A stretch of DNA of 64,000 nt. It comes from Thioclava sediminum (GTDB taxonomy: Bacteria > Pseudomonadota > Alphaproteobacteria > Rhodobacterales > Rhodobacteraceae). Every line of letters starts with the position of its first letter. Position 1 is the stretch's first letter. Of this stretch, positions 13,961 through 21,285 are shown piece after piece. The notes under the pieces are model-generated. The model worked only from the letters and a program-made list of their open reading frames with translations. It was not told where the DNA came from and made no database searches. Where the stretch lies: NCBI RefSeq assembly GCF_002020355.1, contig NZ_MPZV01000002.1, positions 124,001 through 188,000 of the forward strand. The letters run 5' to 3'. Both the position numbers and the translations under genes were made by a program.

Positions 13961-14092
13961 CCGAAGCACATTCGCGAAACCGAATTGGAGGCTGGACCGA
14001 TCACCGGGATGCGCTATCACGGTGACGGCGCTCTCGGTTTGGAGATGCGAGGCGCCATCGACCGTGAGACGTGCAGAAGGACCACAGACCGG

Positions 14093-15931
14093 ATGGAGCA
14101 GCGCGGAACCGACCGTCTGAAACTCGCCCTCCTCGCGCTTGCCGTAGCGGCGCTGGTGGTGGGCCTCGCCTTCTGGGCGGCTGGCGCGGACGCCTTGGCG
14201 AAAGCCAGCTGGATCGTCGGCGTCGTGCCCACCCTTGCCGCGCTTGTTTTTGAGATCTCCCGCAGCCTCCGCCGCGGCGAAGTCGGTCTGGATATCGTGG
14301 CCGCGCTCTCGATGACGGCCGCCCTCGTCTTCGACGAAACGCTCGCCGCGGCGGTCGTCGCGGTGATGTATTCCGGCGGCACCTTTCTTGAGAGCTTCGC
14401 CGAGGGCCGCGCCCGGCGTGAGATGCACGACCTGCTCTCGCGTGTCCCACGGACCGCGACCCGGCATCGCGATGGCGGGCTGGAGGATATTCCGCTCGAC
14501 GAGATCGCCCCCGGGGATCGGCTGCTGATCCATCAGGGCGACGTGGTGCCGGTGGACGGGACATTGGCCTCCGAGACAGCCTTTCTGGACACATCGGCAC
14601 TGACCGGGGAGTCTCTGCCGGTGCGTCTGGCGCATGGGGCCGACGTCATGAGCGGCTCGACCAATGCAGGCGAGGCGTTCGATCTGTTGGCGGTGCGGCC
14701 TGCGAAGGACAGTACCTATGCCGGGATCGTCCGGCTGGTCGAGGAAGCGCAGGCCTCCAAGGCGCCGATGTCGCGCCTCGCGGATCGCTGGTCGCTGGGG
14801 TTTCTCGTCGTCACGCTCGCCATCGCCTTCGCGGCGTGGTGGTTCACCGGAGACCCGATCCGGGCCGTCGCCGTGCTCGTGGTCGCCACGCCCTGCCCGC
14901 TGATCCTCGCCGTGCCGGTCGCTCTGGTGGCGGGCCTTTCGCGCGCGGCGCATTACGGCGTGCTGATCAAGGGGGCGGGGCCGCTCGAGACGATGGCGCG
15001 CATCGGCACGCTGGTCCTCGACAAGACCGGCACCCTGACCGAAGGCCGCCCGCAGATCGTTTCCATCGATAGTCACGACGGGATGGAGGAGGACGAGATC
15101 CTGCGCCTTGCCGCAGCCCTCGATCAGGCCTCGAAACACCCGGTGGCACAGGCGATCGTCACCGCCGCGAAAGAGCGCGGCTTCACCCTGCCCGTCCCGT
15201 CGGATGTAGCGGAAATCGCGGGCGAAGGCGTCGTGGGCCGTGTCGATGGGCGCAAGGTCATCGTGGGTGGCGACGACTTCGTGGCGGCGCGCGTCGGGCG
15301 CAAACCGGGCGACCACCCGACGATGGCCGCCGGGGCGGTTCTCGTCGCCGTCGCCGTGGACGGGCGCATGGCCGGGCATCTGGTGATGGCCGATCCGCTG
15401 CGCGAAGATGCGGGCGCCATGCTCGACGGGCTGCGCCACGAGGGGATCGAACGGATTCTGCTCGCCACCGGCGACCGGACGGATGTGGCCGAACGCGTGA
15501 CCGAGGGGCTCGGCCTCGACGGGCTGCGCGCGGGCCTGACGCCGGACCAGAAGGTTCTCCTCGTGCTGTCCGAGCGCAAGCATGGGCCGGTCATGATGGT
15601 GGGCGACGGTGTGAACGACGCGCCCGCGCTCGCCGCCGCAGATGTCGGCGTCGCAATGGGCGCGCGCGGGGCCGCCGCCTCCGCCGAAGCGGCCGATGTA
15701 GTGCTTCTCGTCGACCGGATCGATCAACTGCGCGCAGGCATCGAAATCGCCGCATCCTCGCGGCGGATCGCCTTCGAGAGCGTCGCCGCCGGGATCGGCC
15801 TCTCCGTGCTGGGCATGATCGCGGCCGCCTATGGCTACCTCACGCCGGTGGAGGGCGCCATCTTGCAGGAGGCGATCGACGTCGCCGTGATCCTGAACGC
15901 CCTGCGCGCCCTTAGGATCAGGCCCAAGTGA
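14093..15931 (+). CDS. Heavy-metal (P1B-type) cation-translocating ATPase, TPCPL subtype
   Basis: A 612-residue P-type ATPase with TGES (actuator), DKTGT (phosphorylated Asp), SKHPVAQAI (HP motif of metal ATPases) and GDGVNDAPAL. The metal site in the fourth membrane segment reads ATPCPLILAVP instead of CPC, CPH or SPC, and the last membrane pair has LQEAIDVAVILN (QExxD). No N-terminal heavy-metal-associated domain is present. TPC with QExxD resembles the group proposed as P1B-5 (iron/nickel), but this comparison is from memory and substrate is uncertain. ATG 14093 is chosen as the nearest start before the first membrane helix; longer in-frame starts at 14045 or TTG 13985 would add polar sequence. 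Confidence 0.88.
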   Translation: MEQRGTDRLKLALLALAVAALVVGLAFWAAGADALAKASWIVGVVPTLAALVFEISRSLRRGEVGLDIVAALSMTAALVFDETLAAAVVAVMYSGGTFLESFAEGRARREMHDLLSRVPRTATRHRDGGLEDIPLDEIAPGDRLLIHQGDVVPVDGTLASETAFLDTSALTGESLPVRLAHGADVMSGSTNAGEAFDLLAVRPAKDSTYAGIVRLVEEAQASKAPMSRLADRWSLGFLVVTLAIAFAAWWFTGDPIRAVAVLVVATPCPLILAVPVALVAGLSRAAHYGVLIKGAGPLETMARIGTLVLDKTGTLTEGRPQIVSIDSHDGMEEDEILRLAAALDQASKHPVAQAIVTAAKERGFTLPVPSDVAEIAGEGVVGRVDGRKVIVGGDDFVAARVGRKPGDHPTMAAGAVLVAVAVDGRMAGHLVMADPLREDAGAMLDGLRHEGIERILLATGDRTDVAERVTEGLGLDGLRAGLTPDQKVLLVLSERKHGPVMMVGDGVNDAPALAAADVGVAMGARGAAASAEAADVVLLVDRIDQLRAGIEIAASSRRIAFESVAAGIGLSVLGMIAAAYGYLTPVEGAILQEAIDVAVILNALRALRIRPK

Positions 15932-18204: not shown

Positions 18205-19053
18205 TTAGTCGCGCAGCACACCTGCGGCGGCCAGCACTTTGCGATCCGGGCGCCAGATATCGCGATGCGGTGTCGCGAAGGCGCGCGTGGAGAAGCTGGC
18301 ACTCACGCCCCGATCGCGCAGGAAGGCCCGGTCGATCGCCTCCTCTTTCGCGACATCGATCGGCAGCGGATAGGCTTTCAAGCTATAGCCGTGAAAGCCC
18401 AGCGTGCCCTCCGGCCCAAGATCGCGATGCGCGCCCGCCATGAAGATCAGCGTGCAGGCGGAATAGCAGCGTTTCGTCACCTGCGTGCTCAGCCCCCGCG
18501 CCAGCACGCGTTGCGCCAGCGCCCGCGCGGCGAAGACCTGCCCGCCGGCACTGTCGAGATCGACCGCCGAGACGCCCGTCGCCGGGGTCGCCTCGAACCG
18601 CGCCAGAAGATCGTAGCCGATATCGCCGGTCAGATAAGCGACGCCGTTGCGCACCTCCAGCGGCTGCGGCCCGGCATAGGCGGCCGGCACCAAGGCCGCG
18701 GTCTGCCTCGCGGCCTGATCGAGCGCATGGGTCACCGTCACCACCGCGACCGCGACCACCGCCACGCGCCCCGCCAGCAGCACATGGCCCCGCGCCTGCG
18801 CATCGATCCAATGCGACAGGCTGCGCCACGCCCCCACCAGCTGCCACAGCGCCAGTGTCATATCCGCGAGGAACAGCAACGCGAAAAACGGCATCGAGAG
18901 CGGCGACGACAAAGCTTGCCACAGCTCGGCGACAGCCAACCGTCCGCCGATCAGCACCACGACGAGCGCGATCCAAGGCGGGCACTCGCCCTGCCAGTAG
19001 CTGCCGAGACCCCAGTGTGAGGCGGGCTGAAATATCCGGGTGGCTCGGGCCAT
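18205..19053 (-). CDS. Membrane-anchored ClpP/SppA-like periplasmic protein (COG3904 type)
   Basis: A 282-residue protein. About residues 26-120 hold three or four hydrophobic helices; residues about 130-282 form a crotonase/ClpP-like domain: VDLDSAGGQVFAARALAQ (oxyanion-type SAGG loop), RCYSACTLIFMAGA (candidate nucleophile Ser between two Cys), and TLGFHGYS (candidate His). This pattern matches predicted periplasmic proteins of COG3904 and resembles SppA/NfeD proteases. Proteolytic activity is not established. It is divergent from the [FeFe]-hydrogenase gene, 159 bases away. Confidence 0.65.
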   Translation of the reverse strand: MARATRIFQPASHWGLGSYWQGECPPWIALVVVLIGGRLAVAELWQALSSPLSMPFFALLFLADMTLALWQLVGAWRSLSHWIDAQARGHVLLAGRVAVVAVAVVTVTHALDQAARQTAALVPAAYAGPQPLEVRNGVAYLTGDIGYDLLARFEATPATGVSAVDLDSAGGQVFAARALAQRVLARGLSTQVTKRCYSACTLIFMAGAHRDLGPEGTLGFHGYSLKAYPLPIDVAKEEAIDRAFLRDRGVSASFSTRAFATPHRDIWRPDRKVLAAAGVLRD

Positions 19054-19212
19054 TTACGTCGTCCTTTCGAGCACCATCGGCTTTCAGTGTAGCACGACTG
19101 ACCCGAAAATTGGGAAACTGCTGGAAAGGACGCGATTGCGGGCGGGCCGAAGGCGGGACTTCTGCCGCGAGCCATGCCTCTGCTATACTAAAGAGACGGG
19201 AGGTCCCTTCGC

Positions 19213-21285
19213 ATGATCACGCTTACGATCAACGGGCGGCACGTCGAAGTCGATGACGGCACCAGCTTGCTGGAGGCGGCGAAGCTGGCTGGCATCCATG
19301 TCCCGACGCTCTGCTATTACCCCGGCTTGCCCGCCCATGCCGTGTGCCGCATGTGCCTCGTCGAGATCGAGGGCACTCAGAACCCGCAACCCGCCTGTCG
19401 CACGCTGGCGAAGGAGGGCGATGTCGTGGCGACGGACACCGTGGCGCTGGCAGCCTTTCGGAAAGCCGATGCGCAATGGCTGCTCGCGCGTCACCCCAAT
19501 GACTGCATGCGCTGCGAGGTGAACGGGGCGTGCCAGCTGCAGCGTCTCGTCCATGAGAACCAGTGGGAGGAGCGTTGGCCGAAGATGCCCGCCGGGGCGC
19601 CTGCCGCCTCGGAAGAGCTCGCGAGTGATCACACCTCCCCCAGCATCTGGCGCGATCTGTCGAAATGCATCGAATGCGGGTTGTGCGCGGAGGTCTGCGG
19701 CGACGCCGTCCAAAACCAGAATGTCATCGGGTTCGCCAATCGCGGATTTGACCGCCGCCCCGTCACGGTCTTCGACGTACCGCTGTCGCAGACCAATTGC
19801 ATCTCCTGCGGCCAGTGCACGCTTGTCTGCCCGGTTGGCGCGCTGATCGAGGCGCCCCATTGGCACGCGGTGCTGCAGACGCTCGACGCTCATCGGCGCG
19901 TCTCCGTGGTTCAGGTGGCCCCGGCGACCCGCATCGCCATCAGCGAGGAATTCGGGTTGGAGCCGGGCACCGTCAGCACGGGACGCTTGATCAATGCGCT
20001 GCGGCTTCTGGGGTTCGATTACGTGTTCGACACCAATTTCGCCGCCGATCTGACGATCATGGAGGAAGGCACCGAACTGCTGTCGCGGCTCAAAGCCGGG
20101 ACGGAGCTGCCGCTGTTCACCTCCTGCTGTCCGGGTTGGGTGAATTGGGTCGAGCTGAACCGCCCCGATCTTCTGCCGCATCTGAGCACGACCAAATCTC
20201 CCCAGCAGATGCATGGCGCGATCGCCAAACGGGGCCGCTTTGCACGGTCTCTGGGGCCCGATTTCGCGGAGGGCAAAGCCGAGCCCTATGTCGTGAGCGT
20301 GATGCCCTGCACCGCCAAGAAGGACGAGGCCCAGCGCCCCGGCGTCTCTGGCGACGTGGATCATGTGCTCACCACCCGCGAACTGGCGCGGATGATCCGG
20401 TCGCGGGGCATCCCGTTCGGGGCGCTCTCCGAGGACGGGCAATTCGACAGCCCGCTGGGCGAGAGCACCGGGGCCGCCCAGATATTCGGCGCCTCCGGCG
20501 GGGTCATGGAGGCGATGGTCCGCACGGCTGCACATTTCAAAGGGGTCGAGCACGATTTGCCGCTGGAATGGGAGGCGCTTCGCGGCGTCCGTGAGGGCGT
20601 GAAAACCGCGACCATTCCCGGCGTCGGCACGGTGGCCGTGTGCAACGGGATCGCCTCGGCCCAGCGCATGCTGGAGGACGAGGCATGGCGCGACGACTAT
20701 GTCGCGATCGAAGTCATGGCCTGCGTCGGCGGCTGTCTCGGCGGCGGCGGCGAGCCGAAATCCATGGACCCGCATATTCTGCAAAAACGCGCCAAGGCGA
20801 TCTACAGCGTTGATGCGAAGGCACCGCGCCGCCGTTCCTATGAGAATGCGGATGTGCAGGCGCTTTATGCCTCGGAATTGGGCGCGCCGAACTCGCCGAC
20901 CGCGCATCGCCTGCTCCACACCCATTACGCCACCAGACATTCCGCGCGCTCACTGCTGATGCGCTTTCTGGATTGCGTGGACCGGCGCGATGGCGCGGCG
21001 GCCGCAAAGCTGTTTCATCCCGATGGGGTCTGGTCGACCACCTCTCCCTTCGGCGTGCTGACCGGCGCAGACGAGATCGCGGGGCTTATCAACGCGAAGC
21101 TGCCGCCGAACCTGCGCGGTGCGAAATATGCGCGTCACCAGATGGAGAGCGCCTCAGATATCGACGATCTCACGGTCCTCGCCCCCGACGGGAGCCGCAG
21201 CCGCTTCGATCTGGAGCTGAGCACCGTGGAAGCTGACGGCTATTCTCAGACGGTGATCCAGACCCTCACGCGCACCGTCCTTTGA
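19213..21285 (+). CDS. [FeFe]-hydrogenase (CpI/HydA-like) with extra C-terminal NTF2/SnoaL-like domain
   Basis: A 690-residue protein. Residues 1-80 form a [2Fe-2S] ferredoxin domain (C34, C45, C48, C62); H94/C98/C101/C107 match the His-ligated [4Fe-4S] site; C152-C162 and C196-C206 are two CxxCxxCxxxC clusters. The H-cluster domain has L1 TSCCPGW (C305 proton relay, C306 ligand), L2 MPCTAKKDE (C366, K369) and L3 EVMACVGGCLGGGGEP (C504, C508), all intact. A small-subunit-type segment (about 525-575, ending LLHTHYATR) follows. Residues about 578-690 are an added NTF2/SnoaL-like domain. A GGGAGG lies before ATG and TATACT at 19184-19189. No hydE, hydF or hydG is in the window. It reversibly makes or oxidises H2 if matured. 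Confidence 0.9.
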   Translation: MITLTINGRHVEVDDGTSLLEAAKLAGIHVPTLCYYPGLPAHAVCRMCLVEIEGTQNPQPACRTLAKEGDVVATDTVALAAFRKADAQWLLARHPNDCMRCEVNGACQLQRLVHENQWEERWPKMPAGAPAASEELASDHTSPSIWRDLSKCIECGLCAEVCGDAVQNQNVIGFANRGFDRRPVTVFDVPLSQTNCISCGQCTLVCPVGALIEAPHWHAVLQTLDAHRRVSVVQVAPATRIAISEEFGLEPGTVSTGRLINALRLLGFDYVFDTNFAADLTIMEEGTELLSRLKAGTELPLFTSCCPGWVNWVELNRPDLLPHLSTTKSPQQMHGAIAKRGRFARSLGPDFAEGKAEPYVVSVMPCTAKKDEAQRPGVSGDVDHVLTTRELARMIRSRGIPFGALSEDGQFDSPLGESTGAAQIFGASGGVMEAMVRTAAHFKGVEHDLPLEWEALRGVREGVKTATIPGVGTVAVCNGIASAQRMLEDEAWRDDYVAIEVMACVGGCLGGGGEPKSMDPHILQKRAKAIYSVDAKAPRRRSYENADVQALYASELGAPNSPTAHRLLHTHYATRHSARSLLMRFLDCVDRRDGAAAAKLFHPDGVWSTTSPFGVLTGADEIAGLINAKLPPNLRGAKYARHQMESASDIDDLTVLAPDGSRSRFDLELSTVEADGYSQTVIQTLTRTVL

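Follow-up and report, generated by a model that had tools for sequence, protein, structure and literature searches.

How can a bacterium keep a gene for a seemingly complete [FeFe]-hydrogenase when HydE, HydF and HydG, the maturases taken as required for an active enzyme of this type, are not detected in its genome? The question is raised by a gene in the window, that is, the whole stretch of 64,000 nucleotides of Thioclava sediminum DNA analyzed here. The original prediction described the product as a complete [FeFe]-hydrogenase rather than a NuoG-like relic. Both descriptions stand: all the residues it named occupy their positions in the 690-aa open reading frame, the H-cluster ligands are intact, and the profile check that it proposed, with Fe_hyd_lg_C, gave a match at 8.5e-81. 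The gene and the domains of its product are:

19213..21285 (stop codon included), plus strand: SnoaL-tailed [FeFe]-hydrogenase homologue of 690 aa, ATG start (Pfam and NCBIfam)
19213..19440, plus strand: 2Fe-2S (Fer2_4) domain, residues 1-76, ligands C34/C45/C48/C62 (Pfam 1.3e-18, alignment)
19459..19563, plus strand: His-Cys 4Fe-4S region (NADH-G_4Fe-4S_3), residues 83-117, ligands H94/C98/C101/C107 (Pfam 1.7e-9, alignment)
19654..19854, plus strand: two 4Fe-4S motifs, residues 148-214, C152/C155/C158/C162 and C196/C199/C202/C206 (Pfam, alignment)
19903..20748, plus strand: H domain (Fe_hyd_lg_C), residues 231-512, with C305, C306, C366, K369, C504 and C508 (Pfam 8.5e-81, alignment)
20773..20937, plus strand: small-subunit domain (Fe_hyd_SSU), residues 521-575 (Pfam 1.2e-18)
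20938..21282, plus strand: SnoaL/NTF2-like C-terminal domain, residues 576-690 (PF13577, AlphaFold model, Foldseek)

By sequence family, the window protein is classed as a group A [FeFe]-hydrogenase: it scores 439.4 bits against TIGR02512, above the NCBIfam cut-off of 405.95, and its ligands are intact. The best-scoring NCBIfam model is that of the group A6 NADH-dependent [FeFe]-hydrogenases (NF040763; 654.6 bits over residues 2-575), but the score lies below the A6 cut-off of 765 bits, and whereas plasmid examples of A6 adjoin NuoE/NuoF-like genes, the window gene does not. The closest solved relative in a sequence search is HydA1 in 8a6t (492.7 bits), and the full-length AlphaFold model (mean pLDDT 86.3, pTM 0.87) fits 8a6t_A, the nearest chain of known structure (HydA1 from a bifurcating hydrogenase), with an rmsd of 2.4 over 582 columns. 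The order of the Fe-S and H domains is shared with HydA of the electron-bifurcating HydABC enzymes of Thermoanaerobacter kivui (8a6t), Acetobacterium woodii (7q4v) and Thermotoga maritima (7p5h). Unlike HydABC, however, the window gene has no adjacent HydB/HydC-like gene and no detected maturases, and its product carries the SnoaL tail and 51 clade-specific positions. The tail scores 31.2 bits against PF13577 (cut-off 24, E 2.4e-7); modeled alone (residues 576-690) it reaches a pLDDT of 89.3, and Foldseek places the model with NTF2/SnoaL-like chains at a best E of 6.7e-6 (291 matches of all kinds at E ≤ 0.001). In fold and profile residues 576-690 thus resemble the SnoaL/NTF2-like proteins, from which they differ in being fused to a hydrogenase. 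No published report of a SnoaL-fused [FeFe]-hydrogenase was recognized among titles and the beginnings of abstracts, and no paper with both "FeFe hydrogenase" and "SnoaL" was found, in a literature to which subscription journals were mostly outside scope.

Neither the tail nor the breadth of the family figured in the original prediction; both emerge here. With six exact peptide patterns, and among the best 80 of 319 matches, tailed relatives (65-98% identity) were found at no fewer than 66 loci, at least, in Proteobacteria, comprising alpha-, beta- and gammaproteobacteria and a Mariprofundus; 64 of these loci extend to the end of the tail and two are broken off by contig ends. Many of the host genera are aerobes. 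The nearest locus among the same best 80 is that of Thioclava sp. JE_KL1, with a protein 98% identical and a DNA identity to the window of 95.4% over 21.8 kb. Within the order, PF02906 exceeds its cut-off in 2 of 292 genomes, and within the family in 2 of 394, both times the own genome and G280; within the phylum it does so in 4 of 398 (G000, G353 and G414, tailed; G616, untailed). G280, a genome 99% complete, has an untailed and different HydA (L095:9882-11930) within the same bacterial family; it adjoins a gene resembling a NuoF/NAD(P)-oxidoreductase fusion, and the genome has HypD, with no HydG and no HydE above cut-off.

In a quick tree built from residues 1-575, all 60 tailed rows fall on one side of one branch (SH-aLRT 100, stem 1.56) and adjoin 12 Thermotogota HydA rows with a support of 98; the tree holds 79 rows of group A relatives alone, is rooted at its midpoint, includes several long comparison branches and leaves out Nar1, R. 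rubrum and groups B-D. The phylogeny that the original prediction had proposed, with placement among non-hydrogenase homologues as its refuting outcome, is thereby answered in part: in a tree confined to group A relatives, a long stem sets the clade off as sister to Thermotogota HydA.

The active site is kept in the aligned members of this clade. When the window protein is aligned with 61 relatives (leaving out L011, L013, L063, L066 and L068), C306, C366, C504, C508, C305 and K369 are present in 62 of 62 rows, and in every metal ligand column, as at C305 and K369, all letters present agree, each column being filled in 59-62 of 62 rows. In the alignment of 60 tailed rows, from which rows of 600 aa or less were dropped and four of the 23 comparison loci (L081, L083, L101, L103) are absent, E285, E288, R292, C305, P330, M364, K369 and M502 are kept in all 60, S325 in 59 and Q331 in 58. 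These are positions that we take, by CpI numbering, to form the pocket and the proton path, restricted to residues that could be mapped. Of such pocket positions, our own choice via that numbering, 12 of the 14 that are not ligands are invariant, compared with 108 of the remaining 291 in the H domain (p 2e-4; 60 rows, relatedness ignored). Moreover, in comparisons of the window gene with seven relatives, dN/dS is 0.04-0.10 for the H domain, 0.04-0.19 for the N-terminal part and 0.12-0.34 for the tail; the H domain is under purifying selection. The core has otherwise diverged: 51 of positions 1-580 carry residues specific to the clade, but the pocket is unchanged. By comparison, two more divergent H-domain proteins encoded next to SpoIIE have neither M364 nor R292, and C306 is missing from one Ilyobacter protein.

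Several other features of these proteins may be recorded. Six tryptophans (residues 89, 122, 146, 312, 453 and 492; window 19477-20688) are kept in 58-60 of the 60 tailed rows, at positions where comparison HydA proteins have other residues, and the mean number per core is 8.6 in tailed rows vs 2.2 in comparison HydA; these extra tryptophans might bear on oxidative protection. C477 (20641-20643) and Q423 (20479-20481), the latter two residues away from the pocket Phe, are clade-invariant in the H domain and absent at these positions from all 19 comparison rows. On plasmids, an H-domain protein of Ilyobacter (L123) has TSTCT in place of the TSCCP motif, and in Paraclostridium (L122) an H domain lies inside a protein annotated as rubrerythrin.

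The observation in the original prediction that HydE, HydF and HydG are missing from the 64 kb extends to the whole genome (4.13 Mb, 99.99% complete, a single Fe_hyd_lg_C match). Its suggestion that the maturases lie elsewhere finds no support in this genome, in which HydG has no match at E ≤ 0.001, HydE has no match, and HydF matched GTPases alone, the best at 69.8 bits against a cut-off of 325.55. The same holds across the hosts of the clade, searched as 43 genomes reached from 44 of the 66 tailed loci (L057 missing) plus G000, G414 and G353; G353 and G321, with identical proteins and the same weak HydE place, are treated as one, which gives 45 distinct hosts. HydG was found in none of the 45 (0/43 via loci, 0/3 in G000, G414 and G353). 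HydE above cut-off was found in none of the 46 tailed-host rows, that is, in none of the 45 distinct genomes; weak matches occur in 11 of the 46 rows, the best at 42.9 vs 254.6 bits. HydF was found in none of 44 host genomes (43 via loci at E ≤ 1e-40 and the own genome by cut-off), a count that covers neither G414 nor G353 and in which some first-look candidates in five genomes are unscored. As positive controls, HydG and HydF were each found in four of six Thermotogota genomes with an untailed relative (from 6 of the 14 Thermotogota loci), and Thermotoga maritima was positive in each maturase control (HydG, HydF, HydE). HydE exceeded its cut-off in 5 of 5 genomes, the four HydG-positive Thermotogota and G616, whose ordinary untailed HydA is accompanied by both HydG and HydE.

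It is highly improbable that the genes are decaying relics, or that the absence of maturases reflects incomplete genomes. Some hosts are indeed draft metagenome assemblies, and two of the six Thermotogota controls also gave no HydG and HydF matches, so drafts can miss maturases. However, the low H-domain dN/dS and the full-length open frames do not fit decay; nor does incompleteness fit the near-complete own genome or the 23 of 43 loci-derived genomes that belong to cultured strains by their record titles, all 23 without a HydG match.

HydG and HypD make or mount CO/CN on iron. HypD, which we searched for as the other Fe-CO/CN route, was undetected in 37 of the 45 distinct hosts and present in eight, the own genome among them. 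Since it is so restricted, the Hyp route cannot be general, and Hyp-made Fe(CN)2CO is ruled out as a general source. Could the protein nevertheless be a true hydrogenase, its canonical H-cluster built by undiscovered replacements of HydE, HydF and HydG, with Hyp-made Fe(CN)2CO perhaps used in some hosts? The ligands, K369, C305 and the proton path found in 60 of 60 rows (S325 in 59) would be accounted for, as would the purifying selection on the H domain and the passing of the group A model TIGR02512, and it agrees with this that more divergent H-domain proteins (SpoIIE-adjacent, Ilyobacter) lose some pocket residues. We regard such an enzyme as rather unlikely, however, given that HydG, HydE and HydF are undetected in the hosts searched, that HypD is confined to so few of them, and that no candidate maturase adjoins the gene.

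This last point follows from the neighborhood, the nearest features of which are:

18205..19053, minus strand: divergent gene for a ClpP-like protein of 282 aa, a weak match to phage ClpP-related proteases (best E 1.6e-4), no Pfam match
19181..19189, plus strand: possible extended −10 element TGCTATACT, located 32 bases upstream of the ATG, named from a consensus match and not from evidence of function
19198..19203, plus strand: likely ribosome-binding site GGGAGG (sequence)

Beyond the hydrogenase gene lie genes for an HlyD/MacA-type protein, an ABC ATPase and a MacB permease (Pfam), so that the flanks given in the original prediction, a ClpP-like protein (here a weak match) and a MacAB-type exporter, are confirmed. 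A heavy-metal translocating P-type ATPase is encoded at window 13985-15931 (TIGR01525, 508.9 bits). The arrangement varies even within the genus. The gene is directly upstream of MacA in 5 of 16 Thioclava genomes and missing from the stretches around MacA in G088, G718 and G100, and Fe_hyd_lg_C has no match anywhere in the G088 and G100 genomes. In Thioclava pacifica the divergent ClpP-like gene accompanies the hydrogenase gene, MacA not being adjacent; in G718, probably the same genome, MacA is about 17 kb off. At five other alphaproteobacterial loci that were compared (L013, L014, L017, L068, L069), the ClpP-like gene is not adjacent. Among ORFs of at least 80 aa, no family other than the gene itself is common to more than nine loci; for the nearest ORF on either side, no more than three loci share a family (family 1, a mixed cluster), and small ORFs within 900 bases are common to at most three, near-identical, loci. 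NuoE/NuoF-like (HydC/HydB) genes are adjacent neither in the window nor among the nearest ORFs of the loci. A hidden accessory gene next door is therefore rejected, as no neighbor is widely common among large, nearest or small ORFs; lying in unlike surroundings across loci, the gene has brought no common neighbor along. At two gammaproteobacterial loci only (L023:9245-9487 and L028:1957-2220), a BFD-like 2Fe-2S protein is encoded in the same orientation, roughly 100 bases upstream.

The upstream regions share little. The extended −10 pattern occurs in 4 of 59 in a pattern scan, three times at −32/−33, and one perfect FNR-type box (L017) among the 59 leads us to reject common FNR control. Phage or plasmid carriage is likewise rejected: viral contigs gave no pattern match, and the 348 matches in plasmid records all lie under 60% identity. 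Recent foreign DNA is rejected on composition, the GC of the gene being 0.654 vs 0.644 for the window and its GC3, 0.81, like that of the neighboring MacA.

What, then, does the H domain hold? It may carry its 4Fe-4S cluster only, the protein being an electron carrier or a redox or gas sensor in which the pocket residues are structural. This we consider quite unlikely. It would explain why all known [2Fe] machinery is lacking in the hosts searched; the long stem branch suggests a shift of role, and a SnoaL/NTF2 domain at the C-terminus is an additional domain of a ligand-binding type. But the invariance of E285, E288, C305 and K369 in 60 rows answers no obvious need of a 4Fe-4S carrier.

Because the pocket is kept while the known makers of the CO/CN-bearing [2Fe] unit are undetected in the hosts, we tentatively favor, at slightly less than an even chance, an H domain that would perform proton-coupled redox chemistry with a non-canonical occupant in the [2Fe] pocket. 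In favor of such an occupant are the failure to detect HydG, HydE and HydF in hosts while the positive controls ring, the small share of hosts with HypD, the invariance of the pocket (12/14) together with the H-domain dN/dS, and the long stem and clade-specific residues that left the pocket unchanged. Against it, E285, E288, K369 and C305, the very residues on which H2 chemistry depends in CpI, are retained, as a normal H-cluster would demand, which favors a canonical cluster instead; the presence of HypD in eight of 45 genomes, that of the window included, also counts against it, as does the choice of the pocket positions by ourselves. The suggestion in the original prediction that the protein works without a normal H-cluster is strengthened by the 45 distinct hosts without detectable HydG or HydE, and stands as a possibility.

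With a non-canonical occupant, the gene would stand alone and belong, as a horizontally scattered member, to a group A HydA clade of Proteobacteria that acquired a SnoaL/NTF2-like tail. A partner whose gene lies elsewhere in the genome would supply electrons, which would pass through the N-terminal 2Fe-2S, the His-Cys 4Fe-4S and the two 4Fe-4S clusters and reach the 4Fe-4S cluster within the H domain, a path drawn from homologues, as in HydABC. The [2Fe] pocket and the proton path are held under constraint; the occupant may be a diiron site made in a different way or a small ligand bound to the 4Fe-4S cluster, and the tail may shape substrate access or partner contact.

HydA without HydE, HydF and HydG has been reported for "a few species" (PMC3226654), and for Rhodospirillum rubrum and, in a table, Entamoeba invadens (PMC4967309). 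The clade is like the Rhodospirillum and Entamoeba cases in having HydA and not HydE/F/G. It differs in its SnoaL tail and in being a broad, stand-alone clade, neither of which is described in the available portions of those papers; no report of the tailed clade was found in the literature searched, maturase-less bacterial HydA being already in print for a few species. That the clade is of [FeFe] type and independent of HydEFG, with an undiscovered route of H-cluster assembly or a new metal or ligand in the [2Fe] pocket, is a tentative proposal to which we give less than an even chance. In any event, a constrained single-gene family that retains its complete active site in bacteria where HydE/F/G are not detected makes the old puzzle of maturase-less HydA testable in culturable, genetically simple bacteria. 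Should these proteins prove active, the site would have to be built or filled in a new manner, a matter of interest for oxygen-tolerant H2 catalysts; if inactive, they would show what an H domain is capable of without the [2Fe] unit.
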